The notes under the pieces: model-generated
What the model saw: the letters and a program-made list of their open reading frames with translations, nothing else
Database searches by the model: none
What the model was told of the DNA's origin: nothing
Position numbers and translations under genes: made by a program
DNA from: Aureococcus anophagefferens
Lineage: Eukaryota > Sar > Pelagophyceae > Pelagomonadales > Pelagomonadaceae
DNA: 64,000 nt
Reading direction: 5' to 3'
Assembly (NCBI RefSeq): GCF_000186865.1
Contig: NW_008705563.1
Location: forward strand, 1,944,055 to 2,008,054
Part shown: positions 10,285-49,170 of the stretch, piece by piece
Layout of the letters: every line of letters begins with the position of its first letter
Position numbering within the stretch: the stretch's first letter is position 1

Positions 10285-11987
10285 CTACATGAAGTCCATC
10301 GACGCGACGTTCGCGTCGTCGGCGTCGCGGATGGCGCCCGGCGCGTCGCCGAGGTCGTTGGCGGACTTGAGGATGAAGGTCGGGTTGAGGGAGATCTTCT
10401 CGGCCATCTTGTCGACGATGGCGCCGAGCCTGAGGGCCGCGGCCATCTCGCCGTGGAGCGTCGCGGCGATCGCCTGGGCAGGACAAGAGAGATTCAACGT
10501 CGCTTCACGTGAGTGTTCCGCGCGCGCGCGTTCCGGAAAAAGCATCCACGCTTCGAGACCGTTCCAAGAGATGATCGCTCGTCCAAAAATCAGCCAAAAC
10601 GAGTGGAAAACGGCCGAGATATGAGGCTTTGAAGTTGGGAATTTTCGCTCTCTTGTCCTGCCCTGGCGATCGCCTCCTCGGACGCGGCGCCCGGCCCCTC
10701 CTCCTCGGAGAAGTGCGCGACGCGCGCGGCGTCGTCGATGGTCACGCGGAGCTCCTGGCGCTTCGCCATGTTGAGCAGCAGCGCCTCGGCCGCGTCCGCG
10801 TCCGGGAGCCCCGCGCGCGCGGCGACGTCCGCTAAGGGGAGGTTGAGGTACGTGTGCGTGAGCTCCACGGCCTTGGCGCGGCGGAGCGCGTCCGGGAGCC
10901 GCGCGGCGAGCTCGGCGTTGCCGTCGCGGGCCAGGGCCTCGGCGTGCTTGGCGAGGGCCGCGTCCAGCGCGCCGAGGTCGCCGCCGGCGACGGCCTCGGC
11001 CAAATCGTGGTACGGCGCCGCGAGGGTTTTCGACGCGCGCGACACGACGCTCGAGCAGTACTTGGGCAGGTTCCCCGCGTCCCCGGGGTCGCCCCGGCGC
11101 GCCAGCAGGCGGCACAGCACGAGCTTTTTGAGGCAGGCGACGGCGACGGCGCTCAGCGACACCGCGGGCGCCGTCGCGCCGACGGCGAAGAGCTCCGCGG
11201 CGTCGCGCCAGCGGCCCAGGCCGCAGCACACGACGCCCCCGTAGTAGGCGTACTTGAGGAGATCCACGGCCTGGACGCCCGCGGCGGCGAGGCCCGACGC
11301 CGGCGACCCGCGCGCCGCGCGCGGGCCCGGCGCGGCGTCCGCGAGCGCGTCGGCCGGGAAGCCGCCGCCGCCGCCGGCGTCGGGCCCGTCGCCCGGCGGC
11401 GGCGTCGGCGGCGGCGCCGCGGCGCCGCTCTTCCGCGGGAAGGCCGCGACGCGGAACACGGGCGCGTCCTCGAGGAACCGCGCGCCGCGGCCGTAGCGCC
11501 GCGCGGCGACGCAGCACTGGAGGCAATCGCCGTGCGCGGCCGTGAGGCACGCGGGCTCCGGCGCGAGCTTCGCCGCCAGCGACGCGAGGGCCTCGGCGGC
11601 GACGGCGGCGGCCGCGCCGCCCTCGCGGCACGCGAGCGCCGCGAGGCGGTGGCCCGCCGACGCGGCCAACTTCGGCGCGACCTCGAGCTGCGCGCGCGCC
11701 GCGCGCGACGCCCAGGCCTCGGCGCGCCGCGCGAGGGGCAGCACGCGGGACACCGCCGCCGCGTCGTCGCCCGACGCCTCGAGGCACCGGAGCCGCGCCG
11801 CGAGCACGTGGAGCAGGCCGAGCGCGTGGCGCTCCGCGTCGAGCGCGTCGAACGCCTCGCCGACGGCGCCGGGCGCCGCGACGAGGGCCCGCAGGTTCTC
11901 CTCGCGGCTCCGCAGCTGGTCGTGGAGCGCGCGGAGCTCGGCGTCGGACGTGCCCGCGCCGACGATGAGCTGGACGACCTGGTCCAT
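10285..11987 (-). CDS. CSN3: COP9 signalosome subunit 3
   Basis: Exons complement(10674..11987) and complement(10285..10473) join in phase 0 over a family-A introner to give 500 residues. CSN3 removes NEDD8 from cullins as part of the eight-subunit signalosome. Recognisable family segments are VDLLKYAYYGGVVCCGLGRW, NLPKYCSSVV, PYHDLAEAVAGGDLGAL, then the PCI region with THTYLNLPLADVAARAG and a winged-helix stretch (RQELRVTIDDAARVAHF). The introner falls just after the PCI domain; the C-terminal exon (TLHGEMAAALRLGAIVDKM) gives the tail helix. A Pro/Gly-rich insert at ~190-250 is unusual. The start is ATG 11987; three further codons upstream begin with TTG. Confidence 0.88.
10474..10665 (-). 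mobile_element. Introner, family A (copy A1)
   Basis: 192 bp, perfect 8-bp target duplication GCGATCGC (10466-10473, 10666-10673). In host sense it starts CAGGGCAG and ends CTGCCCAG. The intron is complement(10474..10673), 200 bp, GC...AG, phase 0. The body is in the F orientation (the AAATTCCCAACTTCAAAG-type end lies at the host 5' side). Confidence 0.95.
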
Positions 11988-23045: not shown

Positions 23046-25353
23046 CGCAGGAAGTAGTCGCGCCAGAGGCCGACGCCCCGGAGGACGACGGTGAGCGGCG
23101 GCAGGAGCGCGTGCTCCGACGTCGGCGCGCGCGCCGCGAGGTCCGGCGCCGGCGGCCGGTACGCCGCGCTCGCGAAGTGGGCCCTGTTGTGGTCCAGGTA
23201 GGCCCAGAGGCTCGGCGCGTGGGGCGCGTGGGCCTCGCGGTCGCCCTCCGTGTCGAAGAGGAACGTGCCGAAGCGGCAGCCGTGGGCCGCGTCCGCGACG
23301 GCGACGAGGTACGCGGACCCGAACTCGAAGTGCTCGGGGAAGAGCGCCGTGAGCTGGAAGGCCGCGTCGAGGAACTGCACCAAAATCGGCGCCGCCTGGT
23401 CGTCGGCGCCCCGGTCGCCGCCCCGCTCGCGGCCGTGCGCGAGCCGCGTCGCGAACGGGTGGCCGAAGGCCACAAAGTCCTTCTCCACCAGCCGCGCGAA
23501 GCCCCGCATGGTCCGGCACTCGGCGTCCAGCAGGAGCTGGGCCAGGGCGGCGACCTGGGACGTGCGGTCCCAGCCGTGGGAGCAGTGGACGAGCACGCGG
23601 CAGCGCCGCCGGTGCGCGCGGTCCGCGACGTGCCACGCGGCGCGGAGGAGCCGCCGCACGGCCGCCTGGGCAGCACAAGAGATATTCAACGTCGCTTCAA
23701 CGTGAGTGTTCCGCGCGCACGCGTTCCGGAGAAAGCATCCACGCTTCGAGACCGTTCCGAGAGATGATCGCTCGTCCAAAAATCAGCCGAAACGAGTGGA
23801 AAACGGCCGAGATAATATTATGAGCCTTTGAAGTTGGGAATTTCGCTCTCTTTTGCTGCCCTGACGGCCGCGAGCCAGCCGCTCTCCTCGACGAGCCCGA
23901 GCCAGCCGAGCTCGCGCGACGCGTCGAAGCCCTCGTCGTCGAAGACGGAGTGCGACGCGTCGTCGCCGGGCCGCTTCTCCCGGTCCCTCTCCTTGTCCGG
24001 CGCCTTGGCGACGGCGGCCCAGACGCGGCCCGAGAGCGAGCTCGACCCGGGCTCCGGCGCGGGCGCCTCGGCGTCCTCGCCGCCGCCGCCGCGGCTGCCC
24101 CGCGCGTCGAGGGCCAGGGCCTCCAGCGCCTTGTGGGCCGCGCGGACGGCGTGGATGTTGCCGACCTGGGCAGGAAAAGAGTGCGAAATTCCCAACTTCA
24201 AGCTCCTCTCTCGGCCGTGTTCCACTCGTTTTGGCTGATTCTTAGACGAGCGATCATCTCTCGGAACGGTCTCGAAGCGTGGATGCTGTTTCCAGAACGC
24301 GCGCGCGCGGAACACTCACGTTGAAGCGAACTTGAATCACTCTTTTCCTGCCCTGTCGCCGACGCCCGCGAACGAGAGCCGGCACTCTTTGTAGCGGTCG
24401 CGGTCCTCCGTGCCGTAGCCCCCGAGCTTGTTCGCCGACGCCGAGCTCCGCGGGCGGCAGTCGATGATCTCGCAGAGGGGCCGCGACCGCGCGCGCCGCT
24501 CGCCGCCGTCGGCCGACGCGATGGCCCGCACGAGCGCCTCGTCGGACGCGGACGTCGCGCCGGCGACGCCGACCTTGGGCTGCGACGCGCGCCAGACGCT
24601 CGCGCCGTCGCGCGCGTCGCCCCAGGTCAGCGCGGGCACGCGGCCCTCGGCGCGGAACTTGCCCGCCGCCGCGACCTGGCCGTCGCCGACGGCCGCGGGC
24701 ACGACGAGGAGCTCCGGGTACGACGCGCAGACGGCGCGGCCCGCGTTCGCGCCGCTCAGCCGCCAGGGCACGGGCGCCTCGAAGAGCACGTTGTCCCGCG
24801 ACCGGCGGAAGCCGAGCCAGGCCGCGAAGGACGCCTCGGCGTCGTAGCGCCACCACCGCGTCTCCGTCGCGCCGGGCGCGGGCACGACGCTCGGGTGCGC
24901 GAGCGCGAAGAACGCCGCGCCGGGCGCGCCCGGGTCCTCGCGGAAGGCCACGGCCCGCAGCAGCTTCGCCGCCTCGGCGCCGGCCTCGGGCAGCACGAAG
25001 GCCACCTCGCGCACGTCCTTGCACCGCAGCGTCAGCTTCCACCCGCCGTCGCCGAGCGCCAACGTCCGCAGCCGCCGGACGCAGCCCAGCGCGATCTCGA
25101 AGTAGGTCGCCGGCATGTGCGCCAGGCTCCCGGGGGGTCCTTCCCGCAGGAACCGCAGGCGGTACGTCGTCATCTCCAGCGCGCCCACGACGGCGATGCC
25201 GTCCGCGGCCACGCAGAGGCACCGCGGCAGCAGCATCATCACCGACTCGCCGCTCAGGTAGGACCGCCGCGGCCCGGACGACTGCGGTGGAGCCGGCGGC
25301 GCCGGCGCCGGCGCCGCGACCGTCTCCTCGTCGGAGTCGAAGAGCCGCGCCAT
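22799..25353 (-). CDS. Myotubularin-family phosphoinositide 3-phosphatase
   Basis: Three exons, complement(24364..25353), complement(23872..24165) and complement(22799..23665), all phase 0, separated by two family-A introners; 716 residues. Residues ~30-150 resemble a PH-GRAM domain. The phosphatase domain has the ordered family landmarks WWRYDAEASFAAWLGFRRS, PRSSASANKLGGYGTE, VGNIHAVRAAHKALEAL (created by splicing), ESGWLAAVRRLLRAAW (also created by splicing) and the C-x5-R loop VHCSHGWDRTSQ. The loop's third residue is His where active myotubularins have Asp (CSDGWDR); the catalytic Cys and Arg remain. Likely role: turnover of PtdIns3P or PtdIns(3,5)P2 on endomembranes. Activity may be altered. 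Confidence 0.9.
23666..23863 (-). mobile_element. Introner, family A (copy A2)
   Basis: 198 bp with perfect 8-bp target duplication ACGGCCGC (23658-23665, 23864-23871). Host-sense termini CAGGGCAG and CTGCCCAG. The intron is complement(23666..23871), GC...AG, phase 0. F orientation. It is slightly longer than the 192-bp norm through an AATATTAT-like insertion. Confidence 0.95.
24166..24355 (-). mobile_element. Introner, family A (copy A3)
   Basis: 190 bp. Flanks TTGCCGAC (24158-24165) and TCGCCGAC (24356-24363) differ at one base, so the duplication has begun to decay. The intron is complement(24166..24363), GT...AG, phase 0. R orientation, opposite to copy A2 in the same gene. Confidence 0.93.
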
Positions 25354-32112: not shown

Positions 32113-34479
32113 ATGGTACGCCCCGTCGCCGTCGCCTGGCTCGCGGCCGCGTCGCTCGTCGCGGGGCAGGACCGGTCGCAGAAGGACCGGCTGAAGGCGC
32201 TCCGGCGGCAGCGGAGCTTCCCGTCGCCGTCGGCGGCCCTCGCCGCGCGGCAGCGCAACGCGACGCACCAGAGCAGCCGGACGCGCGCCTGGCCGCCGCC
32301 GCGGCTCCTGGAGCCGCTCCTGCCGGCGACGGTGACGCGCCACGTCTGGGCCGGGGGCTGCTGCGGCCTCGGCCACCGCACGTCGCGCCTCATGAAGCTC
32401 TACGTCTACGCGGTGAGCCGCGGGCGCCACGTGCTCGTCGACTGGGGCGCGTGCGTGGGCACGGGCGTCGCGAACCTCTACGCGGCGCTCTTCCAGGACC
32501 GCACCGAGCTCGCCGCCGTGCGGACGGGCAAGGTGCCCCAGGCCATCCGCGCGCCGGGCTGCCCCGGGGGCACGTGCGCGTCCAAGGGCTCGTGGCTCGA
32601 TATAGGGAAGCGCGACGGCAGCTTCTTCCCCAACGAGCCCCCGGAGGAGTGGCTGCCCCCGGGCGCGCGCGTCGGCCACAAGAAGGGCGACGCGACCCAC
32701 AAGAACATGTTCCAGAAGGAGTGGGGCATGTTCATGGTCCACGGCGCCGTGCTCCCCAGGGCAGCAAAAGAGAGAGAAATTCCCAACTTCAAAGGCTCAT
32801 ATCTCGGCCGTTTTCCACTCGTTTTGGCTGATTTTTGGACGAGCGATCATCTCTCGGAACGGTCTCGAAGCGTGGATGTGTTTTCCGTAACGCGCGCGCG
32901 CGGAACACTCACGTTGAAGCGACGTTGAACCACCCTTGTGCTGCCCAGGTGCTCCCCTACGCGGAGCACTTTGCGGCGGGCATGGTCGCCGCGCTGCGCG
33001 ACGAGTGGCGGGAGCTCCTCGACGACTTCATCCAGAAGGAGTTCCACCGGGGCGCGCCGCCGCGCGGCGCCGCGCGCCGGGGGCCCCACGACCGCGTCCA
33101 CGTCGTCGGCGTCCACTTCCGCCTCGGCAACGGCGAAAAGTTCGCGCGCATGCCGACGAACCACACGCACGTCGTGCTCCGGGCCGCGGCGGGCGTGAAG
33201 AAGGTCGCGGCGCAGCTCGGCTACGACCGCTTCCGCGTGCTCGTGGCGACGGACGACCCCGTCGCGCTCGAGATCTTACGGAAGCACACGGACCTCGACG
33301 TCTTCGCGCGCGAACAGTGGCGGCCAGGGCAGGAAAAGGGTGATTCAACGTCGCTTCAACGTGAGCGTTCCGCGCGCGCGCGTTTCGGAAACAGCACCCA
33401 CGCTTCGAGAGCGCTCCGAGAGATGATCGCTCGTCCAAAAATCAGCCGAAACGAGCGGAAAACGACCGAGAGAGGAGCCTTTGAAGTTGGGAACGTCGCG
33501 CCCTTTTCCTGCCCAGGTGGCGGCCGCCCGCGGGCGCGGGCATCGTGTTTTCCAGCTGGCGCGTCAAGGAGGTCGACAAGGACAAGTCCGTCGCGGCGCA
33601 GAAGGAGATGACGGGCTCCGCGGACGCGTGCCTCCGGAACTCGGCCGACATGCTCATCGACTCGCTCCTCCTGGGCTACGCGGACGCGCTCGTGCTGCCC
33701 GTGCCGTCGACGTTCACGGTGCTGCCCAAGGTCATGGCCCACAGCCGCGGCGCGCCCTACTGCGCCTTCCTCGGCGAGACGTGGCACGCGGCCGGGCTCC
33801 ACGAGGAGCCCATCGCCATGACCTGCTTCCGGAAAGACGCGAAGACGGGCCACGCGTCGGACTGGACCGTGGCCTCNNNNNNNNNNNNNNNNNNNNNNNN
33901 NNNNNNNNNNNNNNNNNNNNNNNNNNCGTGCTCCGGGCCGCGGCGGGCGTGAAGAAGGTCGCGGCGCAGCTCGGCTACGACCGCTTCCGCGTGCTCGTGG
34001 CGACGGACGACCCCGTCGCGCTCGAGATTCTACGGACGCACACGGACCTCGACGTCTTCGCGCGCGAACAGTGGCGGCCGCCCGCGGGCGCGGGCATCGT
34101 GTTTTCCAGCTGGCGCGTCAAGGAGGTCGACAAGGACAAGTCCGTCGCGGCGCAGAAGGAGATGACGGGCTCCGCGGACGCGTGCCTCCGGAACTCGGCC
34201 GACATGCTCATCGACTCGCTCCTCCTGGGCTACGCGGACGCGCTCGTGCTGCCCGTGCCGTCGACGTTCACGGTGCTGCCCAAGGTCATGGCCCACAGCC
34301 GCGGCGCGCCCTACTGCGCCTTCCTCGGCGAGACGTGGCACGCGGCCGGGCTCCACGAGGAGCCCATCGCCATGACCTGCTTCCGGAAAGACGCGAAGAC
34401 GGGCCACGCGTCGGACTGGACCGTGGCCGTCGAGCCCCAGGGCCGCGCGTCGGCGCTCGGGGCCACGTTCTGGCACTAG
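32113..34479 (+). CDS. Fucosyltransferase-like (GT23/NodZ/O-FucT fold) protein; locus misassembled
   Basis: Exons 32113..32748, 32949..33316 and 33517..33876 (into the gap), with 33927..34479 a second copy of the C-terminal part; two family-A introners give the introns. The protein has a signal peptide (VAVAWLAAASLVAGQ), WAGGCCGLGHRTSRLM near the start of the catalytic region, VVGVHFRLGNGE (H-x-R-G type nucleotide-sugar motif), FRVLVATDDP and a C-terminal block (LRNSADMLIDSLLLGYADA, then STFTVLPKVMAHSRGAPYC) as in GDP-fucose-dependent transferases. A Golgi location is inferred. The complete gene probably ends at TAG 34477-34479; the true product would be ~460 residues if the duplication is an assembly artefact. 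Confidence 0.75.
32757..32948 (+). mobile_element. Introner, family A (copy A4)
   Basis: 192 bp, perfect target duplication GTGCTCCC (32749-32756, 32949-32956). The intron is 32749..32948, 200 bp, GT...AG, phase 0. Host-sense termini CAGGGCAG and CTGCCCAG; F orientation. Confidence 0.95.
33325..33516 (+). mobile_element. Introner, family A (copy A5), with empty site present at 34068-34088
   Basis: 192 bp, perfect target duplication GTGGCGGC (33317-33324, 33517-33524). The intron is 33317..33516, 200 bp, GT...AG, phase 2. R orientation. The same sequence without the insert and with a single GTGGCGGC occurs in the second copy of this locus, so the exact unoccupied target is visible. Confidence 0.97.
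33877..33926. other. Assembly gap (50 N) inside the fucosyltransferase-like gene
   Basis: Fifty N joining the two copies of the same coding segment; probably an artificial scaffold join. Confidence 0.95.
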
Positions 34480-34490
34480 GGGCGCGTGCG

Positions 34491-35524
34491 CTAGGGGAGC
34501 TTGCAGTAGGCGTCCCACGCGCGCGCGTCGTCCGCGTAGAAGCGGCGGAGCGCCGCGTCCGTCGCCGCGGCCTCCGCGGGCGTCTCGGCGCAGGCCGCCG
34601 CCGGCGCGGCTTTCAGCGCCGTCGCCTTCGTGTTCGCCGTGAAGGACACGTTCGCCGCGGCGCCGACGTCGCAGCCGAAGACGGCCGCGAGCGCGTCCGT
34701 CGTCCGCCGGAGGAACCTGGGCAGCAAAAGGGTGCGAAATTCCCAACTTCAAAGGCTCCTATCTCGGTCGTTTTCCGCTCGTTTCGGCTGATTTTTGGAC
34801 GAGCGATCATCTCTCGGAGCGCTCTCGAAGCGTGGGTGCTGTTTCCGAAACGCGCGCGCGCGGAACACTCACGTTGAAGCGACGTTGAATCACCCTTTTT
34901 CTGCCCTGGCAGGAACGCGGCGCCGTCGTAGCAGACGACGACGGCGGACCCGTTTCTCGGCCCCAGCAGCGGGTTGTACCAGTAGGCCTGGGGCCAGAGG
35001 GCGAAGGGCTTGTAGCTCCGCTTCTCCGCGAGGACCTTGGCGACGGCGTCGACGCGGCCCTTGACGCTCCGGGCGCCGCCGAAGGACCCGAGGGCCCGGG
35101 CCAGGTCCGCGACGCAGGCGTAGCGCCGCCAGGCCGTCGCGTTCGGGTGCTTGGCCCGCAGGAAGGTCCACGCGCTCCGGAACCGCGCGACGGGCTCCCG
35201 CAGCGTGACGATCGCGTTCGACGCCGCGGCCGCGGCCGCGGCCGCGCGCTGGTCCGCCGCGATGCCCCGGAGCGCGTCCGCGTCGCCGTCGCCGCAGGCC
35301 TGGCGCGCGCAGCCGACCTCGTGCTTCTCGCTGACGCGGAGCCGGTCGCCGCAGGGCTTGAGAGGCATGACGCCGTAGACGAAGGCCGTCGTCGCCGTCT
35401 TGGGATTCCGCAGCCACGTGACGTCGGCGGCGTCGTTGCGCGTCGACGACAGCACGGCGTAGGACCGGCTACGGTCCGCGGCGGCGCGCGTGGCCATGGT
35501 GGCAAGAAGGATGGTGGCCTTCAT
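34491..35524 (-). CDS. Sulfotransferase-like protein (carbohydrate type)
   Basis: Exons complement(34917..35524) and complement(34491..34716) join in phase 2 across a family-A introner; 277 residues. A signal peptide or anchor (MKATILLATMATRAAA) precedes WLRNPKTATTAF, equivalent to the PAPS 5'-phosphosulfate loop (PK-x-x-T-T), and VTLREPVARFRSAWTFL, the 3'-phosphate element. These are the two diagnostic blocks of membrane-bound carbohydrate sulfotransferases. Splicing yields YDGAAFLRRTTDALAAVFG. Substrate unknown; Golgi location inferred. The stop is 11 bp from the stop of the convergent fucosyltransferase-like gene. Confidence 0.78.
34717..34908 (-). mobile_element. Introner, family A (copy A6)
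   Basis: 192 bp. Flanks GGAGGAAC (34709-34716) and GCAGGAAC (34909-34916), one mismatch. The intron is complement(34717..34916), 200 bp, GT...AG, phase 2. Host-sense termini CAGGGCAG and CTGCCCAG; R orientation. Confidence 0.94.
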
Positions 35525-37819: not shown

Positions 37820-39081
37820 ATGCTGCGCGATAGGTTGCCGGTCCTGCTCGCGGCGTGCATCGCGGCGCTGTGCCTGGCGACCTTCATCCGGTTCGACGCC
37901 TCTTCGCCGGAGCAGCCCGAGGCCGCGGCGCACCCCGCGCCGCCGCCGACGACGGGTGCGCCGCCGGAGCGACGCGACGCCATGCCCGCCTTCTACGACG
38001 ACGGCAGCGGCGCGCCCATCGTCGACGGCCTGGAGCGCTGCGCCGCGTTCCGCGCGGCGAGCTCCGACGCGCGGCGGCCGGCCGTCGCGGGCCTCTTCGA
38101 CGCCGGCACGAACCAGGGCAGCAAAAGAGAGCGAAATTCCCAACTTCAAAGGCTCCTATCTCGGCCGTTTTCCACTCGTTTCGGCTGATTTTTGGACGAG
38201 CGATCATCTCTCGGAACGGTCTCGAAGCGTAGATGCTTTTCCCGGAACGCGCGCGCGCGGAACACTCACGTTGAAGCGACGTTGAATCACCCTTTTGCTG
38301 CCCAGGCACGAACCTCCTCGCGAAGCTGCTCCGCGCGAACTGCGTCCTGCCGCGCGAGTGCGCCGGCGTCGCGACGCGCGGCGCGCCGGGTCACTCCGAC
38401 GCGTCCGCGGTCGAGGCGGAGATCGCGCTCTTCGCCGCGTTCCACGGGACGCGCAAGGGCGACCGGCTCCTCGCGGGCTGCGCGCCGTTCCTCCCGCAGG
38501 TGCCCTGGGGCAAGCACAACCCCTACTCGCACGCGGGGCGCCACCGCGCGCCGAGCTACGAGCGCGTGAATTCGTCGGAGGTGCTGCCCGTCGTCGTCGC
38601 CAAGGACCCGCTCGCGTGGGTCGGCTCCGTGTGCCGCGAGCCCTACGCGTTGCGCTTCGCCGGCGGCGCCTGCGCCGCGGTGGGCGACGTCGCCGCGCCC
38701 TGGCCCGCGGGGCCGCGGACCTACGCGAGCCTCTTCGACCTCTGGGCCGCGTGGCACGGCGAGTACCTCGACGCGGCGACGCCGCGGCTGCTCGTGCGCT
38801 ACGAGGACCTCCTCTGGCGCGGCGAGGCGACCGTCGCGGCGATCTGCGCCTGCGTCGGCGGCGACATGGCTCCAGCCTTCGACGCCGTCGCGGCGAGCGC
38901 GAAGGACGGCGGCCGCGGCCACGCGGACAAGGCGCGGACGTCGCGCGGGGACGCGCTCCGCCGCTACGGCAACGCGACGCTGCGGCGCGCCGGGCTGTCG
39001 GAGGCCGACCTCGCCGCCCTCGCGCGGCTCCCGGACGCGCGCCTCCTCCGGCGCTTCGCCTACGACCGGGGCTACCGATAG
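37820..39081 (+). CDS. Membrane-anchored sulfotransferase with introner in the P-loop
   Basis: Exons 37820..38105 and 38306..39081 join in phase 1; 353 residues. An N-terminal signal anchor (PVLLAACIAALCLATFI) and a Pro-rich stem suggest a type II Golgi enzyme. Splicing at the duplicated target gives AGLFDAGTNLLAKLL, which lines up with the PAPS loop AGLPRTGSTLLHRLL of the sulfotransferase at 53.7-55.0 kb. The later blocks VVAKDPLAWVGSVCREPYA (3'-phosphate site) and LLVRYEDLLWRGEATV complete the family pattern. Retaining the introner's alternative donor would add four residues (TNQG) in frame. Acceptor unknown. Confidence 0.85.
38114..38305 (+). mobile_element. Introner, family A (copy A7)
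   Basis: 192 bp, perfect target duplication GCACGAAC (38106-38113, 38306-38313). The intron is 38106..38305, 200 bp, GC...AG, phase 1. Terminal inverted repeats read GGGCAGCAAAAG at both ends. F orientation. Confidence 0.96.
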
Positions 39082-46244: not shown

Positions 46245-49170
46245 ATGATGCTACGCTTCGTCGCAACAATCGCGCTGCTGCTGCCGCTGGCGCGCGGCCT
46301 CTCGCCGCGCCGGCTGCACGTCGCGGCCTGGCAGGGCGCCGCGAAGACGGCGGACGTCGCGGCGAACGTCGCGCGCGTCGTCGACGAGGCCGCCGCCGCC
46401 GCCGCCGCGGGCGTGGACGTGCTCGTCTTCCCGGAACTGTTCCTGCACGGCTACGACGCCACGAAGGACCAGCTCGAGGCGACGGCGCTGCGGCGGGACG
46501 AGCTCGGCGCGTGCGCGGCGGCGGCCGAGGCGCACGAGCTCTGCCTCGCGGTGCCGTACTGCGAGCGCCGCGGTTCGAGGCTCTACAACGCCATGGCCGT
46601 CTTCGACGCGCGCGGCGCCCTCGCGAGGAACTACCGCAAGGTCAACCTGTGGGGCGCCTGGGAGCGCGACGTCTTCGCGCCCGGCGCGCCGGGCTCCTTC
46701 GAGCCCTTCGACCTCGAGACGAGACGTCTCACCGTGCGGGCGGGCTGCCTCATCTGCTTCGACGTCGAGTTCCCCGAGCCCGCGCGCCACTTGGCCGTCG
46801 CGGGCGCGGAGCTGTGTGGAATTCAAATCTTCAACCCGACTTCAATGTGCGCATATGCGACAGTTTCGACGCAAGCTTTTCAGCTGTGCTTCGAGAACTC
46901 GACGAGAGCAATCGATTCATCCAAAAATCAGCCGAATCGACTTCGATTTGACCGAGCTAGAGAATTCTCAAGTTTGGTCAGGACCACCCAAACCAGTGGT
47001 TGAATTCCACACAGGCGCGGAGCTGCTGCTCGCGGCGACGGCGCTCGGCGCGGGCCCCGTCGACGACCTGACGCCGCGCAAGGTGGTGCCGACGCGCGCG
47101 CTCGAGAACCACGTCACCGTCGTCTACGCGAACCTCGAGGGCCTCGCGGCCGCCGGCGACCGCGGCGTCGCCGCCTTTTGCGGGTGCTCGGCCGTCGTGG
47201 ACCCCGCCGGCGCGGACCTCGCGAGGGCGGGCACCTTCGTCGGCGGCAGGCGCGTCGGCGCGGTCGTCGACCTGGACGCCTACGCCTCCGACGTCGCGCG
47301 GAACCCCTACCTCGCGGACCGCGCGAAACGCGCCGGCGAGGGCCACTACGCGGCGCTGCGGTATCCGCGCGCGAGCCTCGCGGCGCGCGTCGGCCGCCGC
47401 TTCGCCGGGGCCCGCCGCGCCGTCGCCGCGCGCCTCGTCGCCGGCCGGCGGGACGCGCCGACCGACGCGTCGTCGGACCCCGGCGGCGCGCCCGACGCGG
47501 CGTCGCGGCGCGAGGCGACGCGCGTGTCGGCGTTCGTCGCCGGCCTCGCCCCGAAGACGCTGCGCTACGGCGACGACCCGGCGCAGCTCGTCGATATGTA
47601 CGCGGCGCCCGGAGGCGCCAACGCCACGATCGCCGTCGTCCACGGCGGCTTCTGGAAGCGGAAGTGGGACCGCGCGAACACGCAGACGACGAGCCTCGTG
47701 CCCTTCTTCCTGGACCGGGGCTTCGACGTCGCTCTGATCGAGTACCGGCCGCGCGACGTCGCGACGTGGCCCGGGCCCGAGGACGACGTCGCCGCGGCGC
47801 TGGAGTTGCTCGCGGAGACGCGGGAGATTTTGGTCGTCGTCGGCCACAGCGCGGGCGCGACGCTCGCGGTCCAGGCCTGCGAGCGCTCGCGCAAGGCCAG
47901 GGCGTGCGTGGCCGTCGCGCCCGTGCCGGACATGGCCGCGGGCTTCGCGGCGAAGCTCAGCGACGAGGGCGACGCCGTGGCGCGCTACCTCGGCGGCGCG
48001 CCGCGCGACGAGCCCGAGGCCTACGCGGCCGCGTCGCTGCCGGCGGCGCTGATGACGCCGACGCTCCTGGTCTCCTGCGCGCGCGACGCCGACGTGCCGC
48101 CGGACCTCGTCGAGGCCTACGACCCCGCGGGGCCCGCGACGAGGCTCCGCGTCGAGTGCGACCACTACTCGTGCGTCACCGCGGACGACGACGCCTGGCG
48201 CGAGGTCTGGCGCGCGACCCAGGCGCTGCTCGTCGACGAGGCGGGCGCGTGGACGCCGCCGGCGCCGGCGGACTACGGCGTGTCGCTCGACCGGGGCTTT
48301 CTGCCCGCGGAGGACCCGCTCGGCCGCCTGCCGGCCGGCGCCGCGTTCGACGCCTGGGAGGCGGCCGTCGGCGCGCTGCCGGGCCTGCTCGCGGCCAAGA
48401 ACGTGCGCTCGACGATCGCCGCGCTGCCGCCGCCGCCGCCGGGCTGGGTCGACGCGCTCGACGCCCGCGCGAAAGAGCGCGCCTACGGCCTCCTGAGCTT
48501 CCTCGGCCACGCGGCGGTCTGGGGCGAGGAGCCCTGCCTGACGTCTTTACCGGCGAACCTCGCGGTGCCCTGGTGCGCCGCGGCCGACGCCCTGAAGCGG
48601 CCGCCCGTGCTGACCTACGCGTCCTTCAACCTGCACAACTGGCGGCGCCTCGACCCGGACGGGCCCGTGGCGCTCGGCAACACGGCGCGGCGGTGGAACT
48701 TCCTCGGGNNNNNNNNNNNNNNNNNNNNNNNNNNNNNNNNNNNNNNNNNNNNNNNNNNGTTCTTCGGCGAGACGGGCGCGCAGTCGTCGCTCGTGCCCGC
48801 GCTCGACGCCGCGCTCGGCATCGGCATGTCCGAGGACGACCTGCTGCCCTACCTGCTGGCCATGCGCGACTACATGCCCGCGGAGCACGCGGCCTTCGTG
48901 CGCCACCTCGAGGCCGGCCCGCGGCTGCGCGACGCCGTCGTCGCCGCCGGCGACGGCGCGCTCGTCGCCGCGTACGACGACGCCGTCGCCGCGCTCGTCG
49001 TCTTCCGCAAGCTCCACTTCGAGCTGGCCTACACCTACGTGCGCCAGTGGGACAGCCGCCCCGACGACGACATCAAGGGCACGGGCGGCACGCCCTTCAT
49101 GCCCTACCTGAAGAAGCACCGGCGGACGACCTACGAGACCCTCATCGCGCCGGCCGCCCCGGAGGAGTAA
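46245..49170 (+). CDS. Tri-enzyme fusion: nitrilase - kynurenine formamidase - indoleamine 2,3-dioxygenase
   Basis: Exons 46245..46803 and 47015..49170 join in phase 1 across a family-B introner; 904 residues plus an in-gene gap. A signal or targeting helix (FVATIALLLPLARG) precedes domain 1 (~23-300), a carbon-nitrogen hydrolase with E64 (FPELFLHGY), K132 (YRKVNLWG) and C171 (LICFDVEFPE). Domain 2 (~350-600) is an alpha/beta hydrolase of the kynurenine formamidase type: VVHGGFWKRKW, nucleophile GHSAGA, acid SCARDADVPP, base CDHYSC. Domain 3 (~620-904) is IDO-like: FLGHAAVWGEEP, LTYASFNLHNWRRLD, MRDYMPAEHAAFVRHLE, FRKLHFELAYTYV with the presumed haem His, and KGTGGTPFMPYLKKHR. Domains 3 then 2 would convert tryptophan to kynurenine plus formate. 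The nitrilase substrate is unknown. Confidence 0.88.
46812..47014 (+). mobile_element. Introner, family B (copy B3) with perfect 15-bp terminal inverted repeats
   Basis: 203 bp, ends CTGTGTGGAATTCAA and its exact reverse complement, flanked by perfect target duplication GCGCGGAG (46804-46811, 47015-47022). The intron is 46804..47014, 211 bp, GC...AG, phase 1. Splicing restores the nitrilase segment AVAGAELLLAATALG. It has the best preserved ends of family B, so it may be recent. Confidence 0.95.
48709..48758. other. Assembly gap (50 N) in the IDO-like domain
   Basis: The frame is the same on both sides (RRWNFLG | FFGETGAQ). By comparison with the family only a few residues should be missing between these segments. 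Confidence 0.95.

Follow-up and report, generated by a model that had tools for sequence, protein, structure and literature searches.

Introduction

Introner elements were reportedly described in Aureococcus anophagefferens by Huff, Zilberman and Roy in 2016. In the accessible portion of a later study, the introners of this alga are presented as elements having terminal inverted repeats (TIRs) and a target site duplication (TSD), with splice sites derived from both the element and the target (Gozashti et al., 2022; PMC9860276), and the comparisons given there are made between orthologues of Aureococcus isolates, not between alleles. As for the introner elements of Micromonas, the available text of PMC3879977 describes a search for presence/absence polymorphism in metagenomic reads.

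Herein, we describe a site in A. anophagefferens for which a filled and an empty copy lie side by side in one assembly. The window, that is, the whole stretch of DNA analysed, comprises 64,000 nucleotides with a G+C content of 73%, and is part of contig C3 of the 49-Mb assembly (86 contigs) that served as the genome searched.

Results and discussion

Filled and empty copies of one introner site

The first-pass annotation of the window had placed an occupied and an empty introner site on the two sides of a 50-N gap, and the alignment confirmed this arrangement together with its coordinates. It demonstrated directly a filled and an empty state of one site, an 8-bp duplication, and the exact restoration of the empty sequence by removal of a GT-AG segment. 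The occupied copy of the gene segment (33173-33876) is located at the end of the left contig, the gap (33877-33926), which is probably a placeholder, separates two contigs, and the empty copy of the same segment (33927-34430; 504 bp) constitutes the start of the right contig, both copies being on the plus strand. In the occupied copy, the sequence GTGGCGGC occurs twice around a 192-bp insert with the ends CAGGGCAGGAAAAGGG...CCCTTTTCCTGCCCAG, designated introner B (33325-33516, plus strand), whereas it occurs once in the empty copy (34071-34078, plus strand), in which this single, unduplicated target carries no insert. The first TSD (33317-33324, plus strand) has a GT of its own as the predicted 5' splice site, the terminal AG of the element is the predicted 3' splice site, and the second TSD (33517-33524, plus strand) is situated directly 3' of introner B. 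When the stretch of 200 bp between the first GT and the AG of the element, both included, was deleted, the empty sequence was obtained exactly, as had been claimed, together with the correct reading frame, the splicing itself being a prediction. Since the predicted intron B (33317-33516, plus strand) is 200 bp in length and lies in phase 2, its retention would shift the frame.

In total, the occupied and empty copies differ by 200 bp (the introner together with one repeat), by three substitutions, and by a one-base gap. The earlier count of only three other differing bases thus holds for the substitutions (33275-33283, plus strand; 34029, 34030, and 34037 in the right copy) but overlooked the gap, which lies 2 bp short of where the left contig ends (GGCC-TC versus GGCCGTC) and may be an end-of-read error. 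The substitutions, from left to right copy 33275 C to 34029 T, 33276 T to 34030 C, and 33283 A to 34037 C, fall within 9 bp, 34-42 bp upstream of the insertion of introner B; two are silent, and one replaces Lys (AAG, occupied) with Thr (ACG, empty). They form a cluster, with two of them adjacent, roughly 100 bp into the right contig, and could be read errors. From the second TSD onward, 358 bp were identical between the two copies.

The host gene and its homologues

With introners A and B excised and the repeated segment counted once, one frame of 470 codons extends from 32113 to 34480 on the plus strand, corresponding to a protein of 470 aa. Introner A (32757-32948, plus strand) resides in the same gene in phase 0, its interior being inverted relative to that of B, and is flanked by the TSDs GTGCTCCC at 32749-32756 and 32949-32956 (plus strand). 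A profile built from 11 homologues matched NodZ fucosyltransferase structures (PDB 2hhc, E 4e-11), and a Pfam scan of four proteins yielded a match of P0003 to PF05830 and no match for P0001, P0002, and P0011; the host gene product is a putative NodZ-like fucosyltransferase. Introner B is inserted at the codons of the motif QWRPP, of which W336, R337, and P338 were invariant in all 11 aligned sequences (11 of the 14 matches, with P0012-P0014 left out).

The homologue P0001 is an uninterrupted protein, likewise of 470 aa, and differs from the host gene product by six substitutions, all upstream of the repeated segment. At the Lys/Thr site it has Lys as in the occupied copy, and is thus uninformative on the empty haplotype. 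Nor was it accepted as proof of splicing, because the contig it comes from might represent RNA or else a genomic copy with an empty site.

A further homologue, P0002, is the public A. anophagefferens gene model JL720_3291, which matched the host gene with 86% identity over 73% of its length. In the aligned portions of its exons, it is nearly identical to P0001. This model skips 19 residues immediately before WRPP. The empty allele reproduced it through a 57-bp GT-AG intron with the sequence unchanged, while the occupied allele did so only when a single indel was introduced; of 300 such variants, five gave the model, and four of these carry an identical deletion within a run of four C. The skip of P0002 at introner A was obtained when A was occupied, and none of the empty-A variants tested yielded it. 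The predicted gene structure hence favours a JL720 assembly in which A would be present and B absent. Because the model shows apparent frameshifts, P0002 is weak evidence, and JL720 was rejected as a decisive second strain, given that five single-indel occupied variants lead to the same protein; we regard it as supporting.

The introner family

A genome search for the introner returned 1,831 first-look candidates, of which 40, query included, were scored and proved to be 96-100% identical to the query. The TIR of B spans 16 bp, with position 2 as the sole mismatch. Among 39 copies having both ends, comprising 14 from the unselected C3 stretch (window included) and 25 from loci recruited by close matches, the 8-bp TSD was exact in 28 and had one mismatch in nine, two in one, and eight in one, the flanks of the last appearing to be shifted by one base. 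Outside this tabulation are the matches in which an end pair was not recognised (15 of 37), two of 20 loci whose ends are altered (L037 and L048), and one element truncated by the end of its locus. Within the unselected stretch alone (n = 14), nine TSDs were exact, and three, one, and one showed one, two, and eight mismatches, respectively. Flank pairs taken across different elements matched exactly in 0.13% of cases. The number of candidates (1,831, with 40 scored) and the frequency of exact TSDs (28 of 39 versus 0.13%) thus indicate that the filled/empty pair is not due to chance.

When read in the sense orientation, as defined by the AG end of the element, the upstream TSD started with GT (19 copies) or GC (19 copies) in 38 of the 39. 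In L029 and L040, the upstream TSD begins with GC and the downstream TSD with GT, which may reflect a donor that drifted from GT to GC once the element had inserted. With position 2 left free, 22 copies were divided into 13 with CAG...CAG and nine with CTG...CTG ends, and none was mixed; with the CAG...CAG form required, 18 of the 20 loci L029-L048 had it. Judged from the sequence, the element is an introner of the A. anophagefferens type, as indicated by its copies, TIRs, and 8-bp TSD, the predicted origin of its donor and acceptor, and the frame.

The copies fall into two mirror classes. In the window, the elements at 33325-33516 (B), 24166-24355, and 34717-34908 have interiors oriented as in B, and those at 10474-10665, 23666-23863, 32757-32948, and 38114-38305 have inverted interiors. 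In the unselected C3 stretch, six copies have the interior orientation of B and eight the opposite one, and both kinds read CAG...CAG in the sense orientation. End-pattern searches located at least about 100 exact places for each kind; the 546 and 674 matches obtained with one mismatch allowed are not class counts, because the patterns differ at one base and the match sets overlap. A single position-2 substitution in either TIR of a symmetrical ancestor, or a flip of the interior between the TIRs, would account for these classes. The combined proposal, in which the introner would segregate in the sequenced strain and the mirror classes would reflect separate gain of a 3' splice site at either TIR end or an interior flip, is put forward only tentatively.

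A second, distantly related introner-like family was also noticed, with members at 46830-46978 of the window and at L003:2271-2419. Its termini, CTGTGTGG...CCACACAG, read CAG outward on both strands, and the family could thus provide an acceptor in either orientation.

As regards a source of mobility, hAT-like MITEs have an 8-bp TSD and a terminus starting with CAGGG, and these features, as generally described for such elements, are common to introner B. A search for hAT transposase domains (PF05699 and PF14372) gave no match, and neither did its controls. The P-element-type RNase H domain PF21787 gave one match, at C25:178372-178818 (equivalent to L049:4372-4818), which is broken, contains three TAG, and is situated close to a long run of N. 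The introner-type end patterns tried were all absent from the 5,139 non-N bases of L049. Approximately 410 bp downstream of this match, at L049:5229-5300, a degenerate stretch is 82% alike to the introner interior over 72 bp.

Origin of the two copies

The filled and empty copies are best explained as two allelic contigs whose overlapping ends remained unmerged, in which case the introner is polymorphic for presence/absence in the culture that was sequenced. The two haplotypes suggested earlier are accordingly the best-supported reading, in view of the single gene, the lack of a third copy, and the placeholder-like size of the gap, although we infer rather than observe them, since a tandem duplication would look alike. 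Besides the two copies, the downstream 360 bp of the segment had no third copy in the 49 Mb (one 48-bp, 85% match), nor did the upstream 144 bp have one in the genome (one 68-bp, 78% match). When the joined flanks of 38 introner sites were used as queries (40 of 56 candidates scored), the site's own flanks were recovered in 38 of 38 cases, and a contiguous empty match in the assembly was obtained solely for the introner B site, at the right copy (1 of 38); seven imperfect matches (71-80%) that span artificial flank joins were excluded from this count.

Across 264 kb of C3, a length in which N is counted, there were 14 runs of N: eight of 50 N, two single N, and one each of 206, 353, 3,086, and 10,756 N, the long runs possibly representing withheld sequence. 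As the commonest size (8 of 14), 50 N looks like a placeholder. None of the other seven 50-N gaps in this stretch had overlapping flanks, one of the left flanks being only 42 bases long, and overlap is thus not usual at such gaps (one of eight); among all 14 N runs, the only other flank match was one of 24 bp near the 206-N gap.

A tandem partial duplication of the 3' part of the gene, with the introner arriving later in one copy and the junction lying within the gap, is equally compatible with the sequence. A tandem array broken by a gap shows homology to both edges, and consequently the homology observed up to both contig edges is non-discriminating: a duplication joined within the gap would yield these very ends. 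Such a duplication nevertheless requires its junction to fall inside a gap of placeholder size and would produce a 5'-truncated second copy, and it is disfavoured by the absence of both a third copy in the genome and a duplicated segment in any of the 11 aligned homologues; we consequently consider it unlikely.

Bacterial clones can lose inserts with inverted repeats between short direct repeats. The empty copy might hence be an artefact, arising either from a cloning deletion between the 8-bp repeats, to which an inverted-repeat insert so flanked would be prone, or from cDNA-derived sequence in the assembly, and its position at a contig start, where read support may be thin, fits with this idea. 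The right contig, however, extends for 14.8 kb before the next gap, and a further introner of this family (34717-34908, with minus-strand splice polarity) lies 790 bp from where the contig starts, indicating that the contig is genomic and that the empty copy is not a cDNA contig. In addition, a deleted clone of the same allele should not bring three substitutions unless these are read errors, and P0002 weakly hints at the empty state in another assembly. Taken together, an artefactual origin appears very unlikely.

Insertion or loss of introner B

The recent insertion claimed earlier is likely but not proven, since precise loss leaves the same empty sequence and B differs from the family consensus at five positions. 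In each of these differences (positions 42, 148, 170, 171, and 176), G/C replaces A/T. Two recur in other sampled copies, while those at 170, 171, and 176 occur in none of the 28 others, and the nearest sampled relative of B differs at four sites. In the F class, 29 copies of 192 bp were compared: four match the consensus fully, and 24 depart from it at 0-3 sites, but 25 of the 29 come from loci picked by similarity to B, a sampling that favours consensus-like copies. In the unselected C3 stretch, the four F-class copies of this length differ from the consensus at 5, 5 (B), 2, and 6 sites, and B is thus ordinary in age. Set against the three exon substitutions, the three unshared differences of B give a mild hint of greater age or of an unsampled source copy.

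Under the opposite scenario, B would be an older introner and the empty copy would have arisen by precise loss, for example through cDNA conversion or recombination between the 8-bp repeats. The empty sequence would then be identical to that observed, and the five consensus differences, three of them in none of the 28 other sampled copies, are in line with it. On the other hand, two of the five are common to other copies, the sampling is biased toward the consensus, and B is not unusual among the four unselected copies. Moreover, both TSDs of B are identical, and the empty site has no excision footprint; excision of a DNA transposon usually leaves one. Considering these points, we judge precise loss to be highly improbable, and insertion at the introner B site likely.

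Proposed course of events

In the proposed course, an introner-type DNA transposon, short and non-autonomous, would have inserted into the fucosyltransferase-like coding sequence in one chromosome copy or one cell lineage of the sequenced alga, thereby duplicating 8 bp of the target. The filled and empty sites are observed, and the direction, namely insertion, is deduced from the TSD and TIRs. The upstream TSD would supply the GT donor and the right end of the element the AG acceptor, so that the original reading frame would be recovered exactly once the spliceosome excises the 200 bp; the frame is evident from the alignment, and the splicing is predicted. The other allele would retain the empty site. 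The alleles would end at the facing ends of two contigs, the 200-bp indel presumably having blocked their merging and a 50-N placeholder having been added, and heterozygosity or mixed cells may be the source of the polymorphism. We consider this explanation as a whole, from introner insertion with an empty other allele to unmerged contig ends and presence/absence polymorphism, to be quite probable.

If the two copies are indeed alleles of one strain, they would present directly, with no need for outgroups, an insertion with an 8-bp duplication that creates an intron removable with no change to the protein. It would then be possible to measure splicing and any cost in an allele-specific manner, and, if the introner is segregating, one gene with and without a newborn intron could be compared in the same culture.

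Comparison with known systems

The introners known from A. anophagefferens are likewise short, non-autonomous elements in coding sequence, with TIRs, an 8-bp TSD, a donor from the TSD, and an acceptor from the element, and no difference of B from the known introner element of this alga was found. A preference for nucleosome linkers is a further trait ascribed to that type. In the Aureococcus sp. example in Figure 2F of PMC9860276, within the accessible part of that paper, 12 bp are added to the transcript, whereas introner B is predicted to add none.

In Micromonas, as described in the available text of PMC3879977, the IE-A1 elements have a GC donor in 53% of cases, comparable with the 19 GC of 39 copies found here, and both are repeat introns; Micromonas is, however, a green alga, and its polymorphism concerns strains and reads, in contrast to the facing contig ends of one assembly in the present case. 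The Daphnia pulex introns are likewise polymorphic, being found in some clones and absent from the homologous position in others, but the source of most of these new introns is given as unknown, possibly newly synthesised DNA, in the portion of PMC4202315 at hand, whereas a repeated TIR element is the source here.

Our literature search, which left most subscription papers outside its reach, retrieved no title reporting introners segregating within an Aureococcus strain. What the present site adds to the known A. anophagefferens introners is that the filled and the empty state of one site occur together in a single assembly. Since the element class and its mechanism have already been described in this alga, the pair supports the established model, and is a clean example of it and no new kind of system.
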